From: a virus
Virus record (IMG/VR): IMGVR_UViG_3300035698_003231
Coordinates: 1-36,294 of that record
DNA length: 36,294 bases
Direction: 5' to 3' (one strand)
Positions 7,997 through 23,797 of this stretch are shown one piece after another; position 1 is the stretch's first letter; the number at the start of each line of letters is the position of its first letter. The position numbers were made by a program, and so were the translations under genes. The notes under the pieces are model-generated. The model saw only the letters and a list, made by a program, of their open reading frames with translations. It did not search any database and had not been told where the DNA came from.

Positions 7997-8035
7997 ATAA
8001 ACCTCCTTCGAGTTTATTCCTTGAGAAGTATGAGG

Positions 8036-8060
8036 AAAGCTGGCAAGGATTTCCAGCTTT
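8036..8060 (-). other. Leader stem-loop of the HNH gene
   Basis: AAAGCTGG and CCAGCTTT (8 bp perfect) enclose a 9-nt loop between the candidate promoter and the ribosome binding site of the HNH gene. There is no T-run on the minus strand. It could delay or limit translation, as seen in leaders of other phage homing endonuclease genes. Confidence 0.5.
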
Positions 8061-8096
8061 TCGGTAGCTAACCTATTCCTCATTTGTTGAGCTTTC

Positions 8097-19974: not shown

Positions 19975-20523
19975 ATGGTAGCAAAGAAGAAAAAGACAGC
20001 TCCTAAAAAGAAAGCGGCGCCAAGGAAAAAGGCTGTTAAAAATATCAGAAACACAATATCTAAATCAGGGGGTAGGCCAACCAAACTAACCAAGGAAATA
20101 AAAAGACAACTAAAAGTGCTTGCGGAGAAAGGATTTACAGACAAAGAAATGGCTGAAGTCATTGGTATAACAGAGCAAACCATAAACAACTGGAAGAAAA
20201 GAAGCCAAAAGTTTTTTGAGTCCTTAAAAGATTGGAAGAAAATTGCAGATCATAAGGTTGAGAAATCACTGTACGAAAGAGCCACAGGATACGAACATCC
20301 AGAGGATAAGATCTTCAATGATAGCGGCATTCCTTTGATCGTTCCAACTACAAAGCATTACGCTCCTGATCCAGTATCAATGATATTTTGGTTGAAGAAC
20401 AGGCAACCAGACGTATGGAGAGACAAGAAAGAGGTTGGGTTGTCAATGACTGAAGATATGACAGACGACCAGATTAAAAACAGAATTGAAGTTCTGGAAG
20501 AAAAGATAAATGGCGGCAAGTAG
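19975..20523 (+). CDS. terS: Terminase small subunit
   Basis: This is 182 residues from ATG 19975 (GAGG upstream). A Lys/Ala-rich basic head (KKKKTAPKKKAAPRKKAV) precedes a helix-turn-helix (EKGFTDKEMAEVIGITEQTI, NNWKKR). The conserved SLYERATGYEHPEDKIF follows, with a C-terminal SMIFWLKNRQPDVWRDKKE that is typical of small terminases. It recognises the packaging site and hands DNA to TerL. The end overlaps the TerL start by 14 bp. Confidence 0.85.
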   Translation: MVAKKKKTAPKKKAAPRKKAVKNIRNTISKSGGRPTKLTKEIKRQLKVLAEKGFTDKEMAEVIGITEQTINNWKKRSQKFFESLKDWKKIADHKVEKSLYERATGYEHPEDKIFNDSGIPLIVPTTKHYAPDPVSMIFWLKNRQPDVWRDKKEVGLSMTEDMTDDQIKNRIEVLEEKINGGK

Positions 20524-21232
20524 AAAGGAACAAATTGAGTATTTACTATTGCTTGAAGAATCAGCCAAACGTATCGACCAGAACAAAATAGTAACCCTAT
20601 TCCCGGACGAAGGGCCATTATCAAGACATGAATATAAAAAACATATGGAGTTCTTCGAAGCTGGCATTACGTACCGGGAAAGGTTGCTTATTGCTGCTAA
20701 CCGGATTGGCAAGACTGTTGCGGGGGCTTATGAGTCCACTCTCCATCTTACCGGGAACTATCCCGATTGGTGGCCTGGTAGGAGGTTCAACCATCCTGTG
20801 TCATGGTGGGCAGCAGGAGACACGAGCGAGACTGTTAGAGATATTATCCAGCTCGAACTATTTGGGCCGATTAACGATATCGGAACTGGCATCATTCCTG
20901 GCAGGCTTATTGAGGGATATACAAGACGAATGGGAGTGCCTGACGCGATCCAAAGCGCTGAAATCAAGCATGTCACTGGCGGAGTTAGTAGAATTGGACT
21001 CAAAACATACGATCAAAAGCGAAAGTCTTTCCAAGGCACAAGCAAGCACGGAATTTGGTTAGATGAGGAAAGTAGCATGGAGATATACGCAGAGTGTTTG
21101 CTCAGGACAATGACCACGGAGGGCTTAATGATCTTGACATTTACACCCTTACGCGGTATATCTGATGTAGTAATGGCTTTTTTGCCTTCAGGGAAGTTGA
21201 CAGATGCTAAGACAACAACAGAACAGGATTAA
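20510..21232 (+). CDS. terL: Terminase large subunit, ATPase half
   Basis: This is 240 residues from ATG 20510. Walker A is AANRIGKT (residues about 62-69), WWAAGDTSETVRDIIQ is the adenine-side motif, and Walker B with catalytic Glu is HGIWLDEE (about 183-190). The coupling motif is LTFTPLRG. The frame then reads FLPSGKLTDAKTTTEQD and stops at TAA 21230, just where homologues continue into the nuclease domain. The missing half starts at 22081. It powers DNA packaging. Whether it works as a separate chain or is joined at RNA level is unknown. Confidence 0.85.
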   Translation: MAASRKEQIEYLLLLEESAKRIDQNKIVTLFPDEGPLSRHEYKKHMEFFEAGITYRERLLIAANRIGKTVAGAYESTLHLTGNYPDWWPGRRFNHPVSWWAAGDTSETVRDIIQLELFGPINDIGTGIIPGRLIEGYTRRMGVPDAIQSAEIKHVTGGVSRIGLKTYDQKRKSFQGTSKHGIWLDEESSMEIYAECLLRTMTTEGLMILTFTPLRGISDVVMAFLPSGKLTDAKTTTEQD

Positions 21233-21257
21233 CTCATGTGATATTAACAAAAAGCTT

Positions 21258-21284
21258 CAGTTTGGAGCTTAAAACTCCCAACTG
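21258..21284 (+). other. Hairpin at the start of the TerL insertion
   Basis: CAGTT-T-GGAG, a 7-nt loop and CTCC-C-AACTG form a 9-bp stem with one mismatch. It lies in the 120-bp non-coding stretch between the TerL ATPase stop and the first inserted gene. No T-run. I find no group I P7 or group II domain V sequence around it. Confidence 0.5.
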
Positions 21285-21352
21285 ATCAATTTCACAACCG
21301 ACTGTATTTAAAACGATAAATGCTAAAGTCACACGGGCGGGAGACTTAGGAA

Positions 21353-21634
21353 ATGAGTAGGGAAATACATAACCAAGAACTTCCAGTCCCATGCGATTTA
21401 AGCGAATGGGCAATACAAGAAGCAATTAATATGCTGCCAGAGAGGAAAGATAGATGGCTAATGATTCAGTGTGCTTCTCAGAACGTTCCAACTGCAACTA
21501 TTTTGACACATTATATGGTTGGCTTGGCAGTTGCATTGAATGTTGAATATGATCCCGATGAGTGGTCAATTGAGCTACATGAATTCGAAGACAATATTTA
21601 TCACATTTATAGGGTGCATACGGTAGGTGCATGA
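21353..21634 (+). CDS. Hypothetical protein inserted within TerL (93 aa)
   Basis: ATG 21353 with TTAGGA. Acidic and soluble: MSREIHNQELPVPCDLSEWA, then a helical RKDRWLMIQCASQNVPTATI, ending beta-rich (DNIYHIYRVHTVGA). No nuclease or transposase motif is visible. It is the first of three genes lying between the two halves of TerL. It looks like an ordinary phage accessory protein. Confidence 0.55.
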   Translation: MSREIHNQELPVPCDLSEWAIQEAINMLPERKDRWLMIQCASQNVPTATILTHYMVGLAVALNVEYDPDEWSIELHEFEDNIYHIYRVHTVGA

Positions 21635-21981
21635 TGACAGTAATCACAAAAGGACATTGGCCATGGAATCTTCACCCGACACGAAAAGAAGGCGAAAGAA
21701 TAGAGTGTCCAAAGTGCTATTCTACAGATATCAAAGATGATAAGTGTCAAGGTTGCGGGTATTTTGCTTATCAGGCAATGTCTGAACCCGAAATCGAGAC
21801 ACAAACAATTTACGGTGAAACAGAACTGCTACCAACTGATACCATAAACGCTATCAGATATTATCTACTTGCACATGAAGACGACATTAAGCACAGCATA
21901 AACGATTTTAATATATTGCGGGATGTTTTCGTGGTGTTAATGGGCAGAGAGCCAGAGGACAACAAGGAAGGAATACAATGA
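21631..21981 (+). CDS. Zinc-ribbon protein inserted within TerL (116 aa)
   Basis: ATG 21631 overlaps the previous stop (ATGA). CPKC (residues 26-29) and CQGC (39-42) form a zinc ribbon. The C-terminal half is helical and acidic (IRYYLLAHEDDIKHSINDFN). It is coupled to the gene before and overlaps the next by 4 bp, so the three inserted genes form one translational unit. Function unknown. Confidence 0.55.
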   Translation: MMTVITKGHWPWNLHPTRKEGERIECPKCYSTDIKDDKCQGCGYFAYQAMSEPEIETQTIYGETELLPTDTINAIRYYLLAHEDDIKHSINDFNILRDVFVVLMGREPEDNKEGIQ

Positions 21982-22097
21982 GCAAAAAGAGACACGCCAA
22001 CGAATCACTACAAGATTTCAAAACCCGTAGAAAGGTTGCAAACAGGAAGCGTAGGAATAGGGAGCAGATAAGACGGTGGAATGCCAGCGACAAGTAA
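21978..22097 (+). CDS. Arg/Lys-rich 39-aa protein overlapping the TerL nuclease start
   Basis: ATG 21978 behind AAGGAAGG; TAA 22095 lies 17 nt inside the TerL nuclease half. It is extremely basic, beginning MSKKRHANESLQDFKTRRKV and continuing with a KRRNREQIRRW segment; probably nucleic-acid binding. Because it ends within the next gene, ribosomes finishing it could reinitiate at ATG 22081, which lacks a well-spaced ribosome binding site. Confidence 0.55.
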   Translation: MSKKRHANESLQDFKTRRKVANRKRRNREQIRRWNASDK

Positions 22098-23634
22098 AAC
22101 AAAATACGTGGTGATGGCTACCTGGGATGATAGTCCTCATCTTACAACAGAAATGAAAGAAGAACTATGGGAAGGAATACCACCACACCAAAGAGACGCA
22201 AGATCGAAAGGAATACCTCAATTGGGATCAGGTGCTATATATCCGGTTGTCGAAGAAAGGATCACATGTGATGATTTCGAGATCCCTGCGTTTTGGCCGA
22301 AAGCTTATGCATTGGATGTTGGTTGGAATTGTACAGCTGCTTTGTGGGGCGCATGGGATAGGCAGAGTGATTGTGTTTATCTTTGGTCTTGTTATAAACA
22401 GGCTCAAGCGGAGCCTCCTGTCCATGTTGACGCGATTCAGGCAAGAGGGAAGTGGATACCAGGGGTTATTGACCCGGCAGCAAGGGGCAGAAGTCAGAAG
22501 GATGGACACAGGTTGTTTGACTCTTATATCTCTATGGGCCTCAACCTTGACCTGTCGGACAACGCAGTTGAGGCCGGAATACATGCAGTATTTAGGCGAA
22601 TGGTATCGGGCAGGCTCAAGGTGTTTAAAAGTTTATTACCCTGGTTTGAAGAATATAGGTTGTATAGACGAGATGAAAAGGGTAAGATAGTAAAAGAGAA
22701 CGACCATTTAATGGATTGCCTACACCCGAACACGAGAGTTTTAACAGGCAATGGAAGCGTAAGAATAGTTGACTTGGTTGGTAAAGCCGGTATGGTGTTA
22801 TCTATAAACGGGAAGTGGGTTTCTTTTAAAAACTGTAGAAGGACACACAAAAAAAAGGAAATGGTTAAGGTTTTGTTTGCTACCGGATCTGTCATATGCA
22901 CAAAAGACCATAAGTTTTTAACCGATAAAGGGTGGGTAAAGGCTGTTGACTTAATAGGAAAGAATTGCTATAATGCATTAACTCATACAATCCAACAAAA
23001 GGAGAGTAATGCATGCAAATCACAATCTTATCAGACAAGCAACAAGAGTTTAATGGAGAAGTTTACTGGTTATGTGGAAAGTATTTCCAGAGGTACGGTA
23101 AAAGGCTTCATAGGACTGTCTTTAAATCCCACAACGGAGAGATCCCAAAAGGGTTTCATGTCCACCACAAAGACGACAATCGGTCAAACAACGAGAACGA
23201 TAATCTTGAACTTTTATTCGGTCCTGAGCATATTTCACCACCACAAAGGAATTAGTAAAAAAATGCCGGAGCTTGCGCTTATCAAAGCGGCTGAGTGGCA
23301 TGGTGGGGAAGATGGCAAAGAGTGGCATAAACAACATTACGAGAACTTTAAGCACCTACTTCACCAGAAAGGAACCTTTACTTGTGAATGGTGTGGCTAC
23401 GAATACACAGCCCAAGTCAATGGGAACAATAGATTCTGTTCGAACAACTGTAAGACAAAGTGGCGGTTTAAATCCGGTATTGATGACGAAGAAAGAACAT
23501 GCATTGAATGTGGAACCAAATTCATTAAAAACAAGTATGTCAAAACTAAAACCTGTACCAGGTCATGCGCTGGAAAAGTGTCAAGCCGTAAAAGAATGGA
23601 AAGAGAGCGCAACATATTGCATGGAAGTTCCTGA
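22081..23634 (+). CDS. terL: Terminase large subunit, nuclease half (N-extein) running into the intein
   Basis: From ATG 22081, residues 1-212 are TerL: KYVVMATWDDSPHLTTEMKE, IPPHQRDARSKGIPQLGSGA, then the RNase H-like nuclease with metal ligands in YALDVGWN and in PGVIDPAARG. It breaks at NDHLMD, inside the third acidic motif. Residue 213 is Cys1 of an intein. The frame stays open through the intein's HNH region to TAA 23632, but the intein C-part and TerL end lie one frame over. A +1 shift anywhere between 23228 and 23634 would give a complete protein. Confidence 0.8.
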   Translation: MPATSKTKYVVMATWDDSPHLTTEMKEELWEGIPPHQRDARSKGIPQLGSGAIYPVVEERITCDDFEIPAFWPKAYALDVGWNCTAALWGAWDRQSDCVYLWSCYKQAQAEPPVHVDAIQARGKWIPGVIDPAARGRSQKDGHRLFDSYISMGLNLDLSDNAVEAGIHAVFRRMVSGRLKVFKSLLPWFEEYRLYRRDEKGKIVKENDHLMDCLHPNTRVLTGNGSVRIVDLVGKAGMVLSINGKWVSFKNCRRTHKKKEMVKVLFATGSVICTKDHKFLTDKGWVKAVDLIGKNCYNALTHTIQQKESNACKSQSYQTSNKSLMEKFTGYVESISRGTVKGFIGLSLNPTTERSQKGFMSTTKTTIGQTTRTIILNFYSVLSIFHHHKGISKKMPELALIKAAEWHGGEDGKEWHKQHYENFKHLLHQKGTFTCEWCGYEYTAQVNGNNRFCSNNCKTKWRFKSGIDDEERTCIECGTKFIKNKYVKTKTCTRSCAGKVSSRKRMERERNILHGSS

Positions 23635-23677
23635 AGGAAACGCATTTGCTGTTGAAAATGGTGTTATAGTTCACAAT
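22717..23677 (+). mobile_element. Cys1 intein in TerL nuclease motif, frames out of register
   Basis: It begins CLHPNTRVLTGNG (block A) and has GSVICTKDHKFLTDKGWVKA as block B. It ends in YCMEVPEGNAFAVENGVIVH then Asn, followed by Cys+1 (blocks F and G). The span is 961 nt, one more than a codon multiple, so the two splicing halves are in frames 1 and 2. An HNH gene in a third frame occupies the middle. Loss of one base near 23233 would unite the halves. Alternatively the halves could act in trans as a split intein. Confidence 0.75.
23013..23255 (+). CDS. HNH homing endonuclease nested in the TerL intein (frameshifted)
   Basis: ATG 23013 has its own AAAAGGAGA. YGKRLHRTVFKSHNGEIPKG then FHVHHKDDNRSNNENDNLEL is a clear HNH core with intact His residues. 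The frame stops at 23255, but the family's continuation lies in frame +1 from about 23236 to 23634. That continuation is HHHKGISKKM, AAEWHGGEDGKEWHKQHYEN, then CEWC, CSNNC, CIEC and CTRSC zinc knuckles. Reading ATTTC as ATTC (23232-23236) joins the two smoothly. The nuclease would promote homing of the intein into TerL genes. Confidence 0.75.
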   Translation: MQITILSDKQQEFNGEVYWLCGKYFQRYGKRLHRTVFKSHNGEIPKGFHVHHKDDNRSNNENDNLELLFGPEHISPPQRN

Positions 23678-23797
23678 TGTTGCAGGTATTTAATTCTTTC
23701 AGGCATGGCAATAGCAGTGGACGAAGTAACGGCCACATCTGATTATGTGAAAGAATATAAGCTTAAACAGGGTGGGAATCCGACAACGGGATATTAA
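23228..23797 (+). CDS. terL: Intein C-part plus TerL C-extein
   Basis: This frame is open from 23228 to TAA 23795. It has no evident ribosome binding site; the ATG at 23273 and the ATG at 23537 are possible starts. The last ~45 intein residues (CQAVKEWKESATYCMEVPEG onward) end at 23677. The C-extein is CCRYLILSGMAIAVDEVTAT to GGNPTTGY, matching the end of large terminases after the DHLMDAxRY motif. Its expression needs either frameshifting from the upstream frame or separate translation and trans-splicing. Confidence 0.65.
   Translation, partial: AYFTTTKELVKKCRSLRLSKRLSGMVGKMAKSGINNITRTLSTYFTRKEPLLVNGVATNTQPKSMGTIDSVRTTVRQSGGLNPVLMTKKEHALNVEPNSLKTSMSKLKPVPGHALEKCQAVKEWKESATYCMEVPEGNAFAVENGVIVHNCCRYLILSGMAIAVDEVTATSDYVKEYKLKQGGNPTTGY

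Follow-up and report, generated by a model that had tools for sequence, protein, structure and literature searches.

The window analysed here, the whole 36,294-base record of virus contig IMGVR_UViG_3300035698_003231, carries a terminase gene, terL, whose nuclease part is interrupted by an intein, and within that intein lies a gene for an HNH endonuclease. We conclude that this is very probably a mobile TerL-nuclease intein in which HNH is a separate gene with its own ribosome binding site, overprinted on the linker between the two intein halves (IntN and IntC) so that the intein frame is that of HNH shifted by one (HNH+1), and that a short frameshift has befallen the copy in the window. The original prediction, made from the letters of the window, had already placed HNH over the intein in another frame, and this finds strong support in intact homologues. 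It is because of these homologues, rather than the window's own stop statistics, that the overprinting is secure; the anatomy, its conservation, the frame relations, the avoidance of stops and the purifying selection on HNH can all be read directly from them.

Searches with TerL recovered loci L005, L006, L007/L008 and L016, each with an intein at the same site, one open frame running from the N-extein to the C-extein and HNH in a different one; in Tetrasphaera phage TJE1, Acinetobacter phage Highwayman and Rhodobacteraceae phage LS06-2018-MD07, the annotated terL coding sequence spans the whole of HNH. A contig scan with a single HNH query gave no matches, and an HNH alignment used as the query afterwards gave 41 loci. 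Alignment queries of this kind reached viral contigs as well as bacterial and archaeal ones, including Piscinibacter sakaiensis 201-F6, Thermoplasmatales and Candidatus Nitrosotalea. When the HNH-sampled loci were sorted by hidden Markov models (HMMs) of IntN and IntC, 76 proved to be overprinted with the intein frame at HNH+1, three were overprinted at HNH+2 (L135, L147, and L200), 32 had IntN and IntC in separate open reading frames (ORFs), being either broken or split, and 26 were freestanding. A second sample, which has many contigs in common with the first, was drawn by IntN alignment only, a whole-intein alignment being too diverse to serve as a query. Its 62 distinct inteins comprise 58 overprinted cis-inteins, three mini-inteins and one split intein; since sampling by IntN alone yields this proportion, the open intein frame is the rule and not an artifact of the choice of loci. 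The intein frame is HNH+1 in 58/58 of these cis-inteins, the HNH match in L313, an intein of 164 residues, being short and weak.

A single frame passes through both exteins in 79 homologues from the HNH sample and 61 from the IntN sample. Homologues with HNH in the intein frame, which the original prediction had named as evidence against itself, number zero in the HNH-sampled set and zero among the 62 IntN-sampled inteins. Across the homologous inteins C1, T63, H66, and N320 are invariant, and 23 of 24 homologues match the Pfam Intein_splicing model. Pfam recognizes a terminase in hosts L090, L092, L218, L229, and L239 and none in L237, L243, L245, L282, and L301, which were assigned from sequence. 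On the strength of these comparisons, we regard the double-coded HNH/intein arrangement as both real and widespread. The same unit of IntN and overprinted HNH seems to occupy other positions in L237 and L282, close, as far as can be judged, to the Walker B region of an ATPase, in hosts that Pfam leaves unnamed. In L243, from a Candidatus Nitrosotalea contig, a LAGLIDADG match at residues 420 to 473 lies well upstream of the intein with the overprinted HNH in one ORF, so that this gene perhaps holds two inteins of different kinds.

The two coding layers appear to be retained in different ways. In 63 overprinted genes there are 0 host-frame stops against 126.7 expected from synonymous-codon shuffles, whereas in 41 relatives of the free or split kind the count is 257, with 260.7 expected. 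Leu, Val, and Ile codons whose use would put a TAA or TGA into the intein frame account for 0 of 311 in 73 overprinted genes, compared with 362/848 in these genes where the context makes them harmless and 154/296 in the controls; Met before a codon starting with A, which makes a stop unavoidable, occurs 0 times in overprinted genes and 43 times in the controls. In contrast to these differences, substitutions fall on the three HNH codon positions in the proportions 25.5/22.3/52.2% in overprinted pairs versus 25.5/22.1/52.4% in controls, and intein-frame identity within the overlap declines as it does in controls. Selection on the amino acids of the intein layer was therefore rejected. Taken together, the avoidance of stops and the control-like spectrum indicate that the HNH layer is under purifying selection at the protein level, while the intein layer in the overlap is, to judge from these sequences, constrained only to lack stops. 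The original prediction of two layers under selection thus holds for the HNH protein; for the intein it reduces to an open frame whose amino acids are conserved no further than in controls. The preference for HNH+1 would follow from the +1 frame intrinsically holding far fewer stops, as in relatives outside the overprinted class (257 versus 677 in the +2 frame).

In the window itself, the intein (Cys1 to HN codons, 22717 to 23677) is 961 nucleotides (nt) long, a codon multiple plus one, and its halves consequently lie in different frames, just as first described: IntN shares the frame of the ORF at 22081 to 23634, and IntC shares that of the ORF at 23273 to 23797. The sequence elements of a cis-splicing intein, C1, TKDH, and HN followed by C, are all present, and Pfam Intein_splicing matches IntC at 111 to 147 of P0003, below the cut-off. 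The HNH gene (23013 to 23634) begins in the third frame behind its own ribosome binding site and has its later part in the IntN frame, again as described (Table 1). Its two pieces are matched in consecutive order by PHROG 15471, and an HNH motif with C-terminal zinc ribbons assigns the product to the homing-type endonucleases of HNH_3/PHROG 15471. On either side of the break the intein frame is HNH+1 with zero stops, which bears out the claim that a repaired intein frame would be open throughout HNH. The chance attached to that claim, about 5 in 100,000, was too strong: given the HNH protein, the probability of zero stops in the HNH+1 frame is 0.0014 under genome codon usage (5.0 expected) or 0.037 when the gene's own codons are shuffled (2.3 expected), so that the open frame in the window alone is suggestive. 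One net shift does interrupt both genes, as proposed, and a family HMM scan narrows it to 23229 to 23255; the proposed repair of ATTTC to ATTC does not stand as the unique one, since by this HMM other placements are equal or slightly better, two missing bases scoring 233.3 bits and one extra base 230.2 bits. An extra T as the sole lesion was accordingly rejected.

As to what caused the break, a true mutation may have killed both the intein and HNH in a defective phage or prophage, a tentative possibility that concerns only the origin of the lesion and is compatible with an overprinted intein. Both products are interrupted in the window and the data would accommodate such a mutation, but TerL is normally essential, and a near-identical pair of loci, L106 and L102, illustrates that single-base indels do occur at such loci in this collection. 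L106 differs from L102 and L103 over the intein only by the absence of one A from a run; this loss disrupts the overprinted pair and is probably a sequencing or assembly error. L219, sister to the overprinted L221, is a third broken case resembling the window.

Another possibility is a fractured gene, that is, two TerL pieces with a split intein and a free HNH between them, joined by trans-splicing. Genes of this kind, their split inteins accompanied by free homing endonucleases of a different family, were reportedly described by Dassa et al. in 2009; there too the endonuclease gene stands between IntN and IntC, an anatomy that our split class reproduces, but the host gene is in separate ORFs, whereas in the overprinted class it is a single ORF. 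The split architecture occurs at the same TerL site and with the same HNH family in Lactobacillus phage CL2 (L088), Brochothrix phage BL3 (L094), and many contigs, and IntN and IntC of the window are in different frames. In CL2 and BL3 the annotated terL ends in IntN, with HNH and a piece comprising IntC and TerL downstream; HNH is intact in CL2, and neither record labels the split terminase intein as such. However, the anatomy of the true splits is not that of the window: their IntN frame ends 18 to 147 nt past its domain, stops occur throughout the intervening region, and a strong Shine-Dalgarno sequence and start precede many IntC immediately, whereas the window's IntN frame remains open for 666 nt with no stop, and no start led by a Shine-Dalgarno sequence, ahead of IntC. 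The window's HNH is also broken, which a free gene would not call for. Hence, although the alternative offered by the original prediction exists in the family, it is very unlikely here: the open IntN frame, the lack of stops and the HNH+1 relation on both sides of the break place the window in the overprinted class with one lesion. What it carries is thus an overprinted intein of the conserved type, damaged or mis-sequenced in this copy, rather than a fractured gene. In a tree of 132 HNH proteins, where the window falls among overprinted members, the four classes cluster (27 changes needed versus a shuffled mean of 45.7), with modest support and the direction unresolved. Programmed ribosomal frameshifting at about 23235, by which one shift in a single direction would rescue both TerL-intein and HNH, is scarcely credible, as no relative depends on a shift at that position, both frames of the intact homologues being open, and no slippery heptamer is apparent at the site.

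Returning to the overprinted intein, we propose that ribosomes would translate TerL-intein-TerL as a single precursor, in which IntN and IntC would fold as a Hint domain around a disordered loop of about 190 residues and then excise themselves. Internal initiation on the same mRNA likely yields the free HNH enzyme, the stop codon of its gene lying at the start of IntC. This enzyme might then cut intein-less TerL genes, with repair copying the intein in. Selection retains the HNH protein sequence and a stop-free intein frame but not the amino acids of the intein; in the window, the frameshift at 23229 to 23255, a mutation or an assembly error, interrupts both products. AlphaFold models agree with such a division of roles. 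The HNH protein of L007 reaches a mean predicted local distance difference test score (pLDDT) of 92.0, while in the intein from the same DNA the block means are about 77 to 98 for residues 1 to 90 and 281 to 320 and about 26 to 54 for the overlap, which is thus predicted to be disordered where the HNH frame folds confidently. The fold of the intein model matches solved inteins; a Foldseek search of the HNH model against the PDB gave no significant match, the best being I-HmuI. I-HmuI is also the nearest solved structure in a separate comparison, at a weak E value of 0.009. As to expression, a Shine-Dalgarno match of at least 4 nt precedes 28/61 overprinted HNH starts versus 2/34 internal control codons. 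An indirect pointer to homing comes from the nearest TerL relatives, L002 to L004 (79 to 80% identical in the C-terminal terminase part), which are intein-free: the intein is inserted directly after NDHLMD, and in these relatives NDHLMD is followed by CTRYL or CLKYL.

Several points weigh against this proposal. The window encodes neither an intact intein/TerL nor an intact HNH, and no single frame is open across both of its exteins; 14/61 overprinted HNH starts have no Shine-Dalgarno-like match; and splicing, HNH translation, cleavage, and homing are steps that we infer. Further, the absence of stops is part of what defines the overprinted class among the HNH-sampled loci, which makes the shuffle and codon figures partly circular; the evidential weight rests on the IntN-sampled set and on the gap between zero stops and the clean anatomy of the splits.

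Table 1. Features of TerL, its intein and the overprinted HNH gene in the window
Feature	Coordinates	Strand	Basis
TerL ATPase part, separate ORF	20510..21232	+	Pfam Terminase_6N, E 4e-14; PHROG 31467, E 2e-68
TerL RNase H nuclease part (N-extein), C-terminal end KENDHLMD	22081..22716	+	Terminase_6C 85-212
IntN, Cys1 and block B (CTKDH)	22717..22968	+	Homologue-built IntN HMM, E 2e-27
Shine-Dalgarno-like AAGGAGAG, 6-nt spacer to the HNH ATG	22999..23006	+	Sequence
HNH endonuclease, N part, overprinted, intein frame HNH+1	23013..23231	+	HNH_3, E 4e-15; PHROG 15471 profile 1-77
Region containing the net frameshift that interrupts HNH and intein	23229..23255	+	Family HMM scan of candidate break points
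HNH endonuclease, C part, two zinc-ribbon-like CxxC pairs, IntN frame	23236..23634	+	PHROG 15471 profile 80-179, E 2e-26
IntC, blocks F and G, C-terminal VHN, overlapping the HNH 3' end	23564..23677	+	IntC HMM (match 23564-23692), E 2e-15
TerL C-extein CCRYLILSGM...	23678..23797	+	Aligns to intein-free TerL C termini CTRYLIMSGM

The TerL of the window is itself in two parts, an ATPase ORF and a nuclease ORF starting at 22081. They lie about 850 nt apart (21232 to 22081), and the gap holds two or three small ORFs; a group I or group II intron was rejected for the TerL region, the gap included, since Rfam has no match to one. The nearest three relatives likewise have these parts in different frames, a common separation that suggests a two-gene TerL lineage. 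Inserts of about 870 to 900 nt inside the ATPase part of L010 and L011 mark a further insertion hot spot. Elsewhere in the window, a match to the int-alpA small RNA family (46.5 bits) lies at 8018 to 8083 on the minus strand.

In the literature on overlapping or overprinted endonucleases in inteins, the only relevant paper found describes an out-of-frame HNH (ShiLan) in an insertion within a phage methylase, for which no splicing domains were found and the insert was proposed to stay in the protein (PMC11855218). The likeness is considerable: a zinc-finger HNH of about 195 residues is encoded out of frame by an insertion through which the host frame remains open, what the host frame encodes there is poorly structured, and a disjunct distribution suggests homing. 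However, there is no intein there, whereas the intein that surrounds the overprinted HNH here has conserved splicing blocks. A preprint on a noncanonical intein architecture in actinobacteriophages (Gosselin et al., bioRxiv 10.1101/2025.01.02.630785) is cited in that paper for overlapping frames and, going by its title and that citation, may describe out-of-frame endonucleases in inteins. The TerL inteins of mycobacteriophages, for which the endonuclease is reported as an intein domain and every insertion site falls within the ATPase domain (PMC5050341), share with ours the TerL host, the Hint splicing blocks and an endonuclease between IntN and IntC; they differ in that the endonuclease here, both in the window and in all of the overprinted homologues, is in another frame, mostly at the RNase H site. 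Freestanding HNH genes beside terL, such as Orf3 of Pseudomonas phage PAE1, belong to the same family (PHROG 15471) but lie outside any intein and have stops in both other frames.

The usual account of an intein is of a single protein that includes its endonuclease as an in-frame domain. At the common phage site considered here, the endonuclease instead has a gene of its own in a different frame of the same DNA, and terL annotations overlook it. Whether these loci amount to a large undescribed class, with the endonuclease overprinted and not fused, the same DNA encoding a disordered loop that is spliced out and a folded enzyme, and repeated switches on the tree among overprinted, split and freestanding forms, is in our judgment evenly balanced. 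The arrangement opens to test how an overprinted pair evolves when one layer need only stay open, why one frame with few intrinsic stops, HNH+1, is preferred, and how cis-inteins may be converted into split inteins, which are widely used as protein tools.
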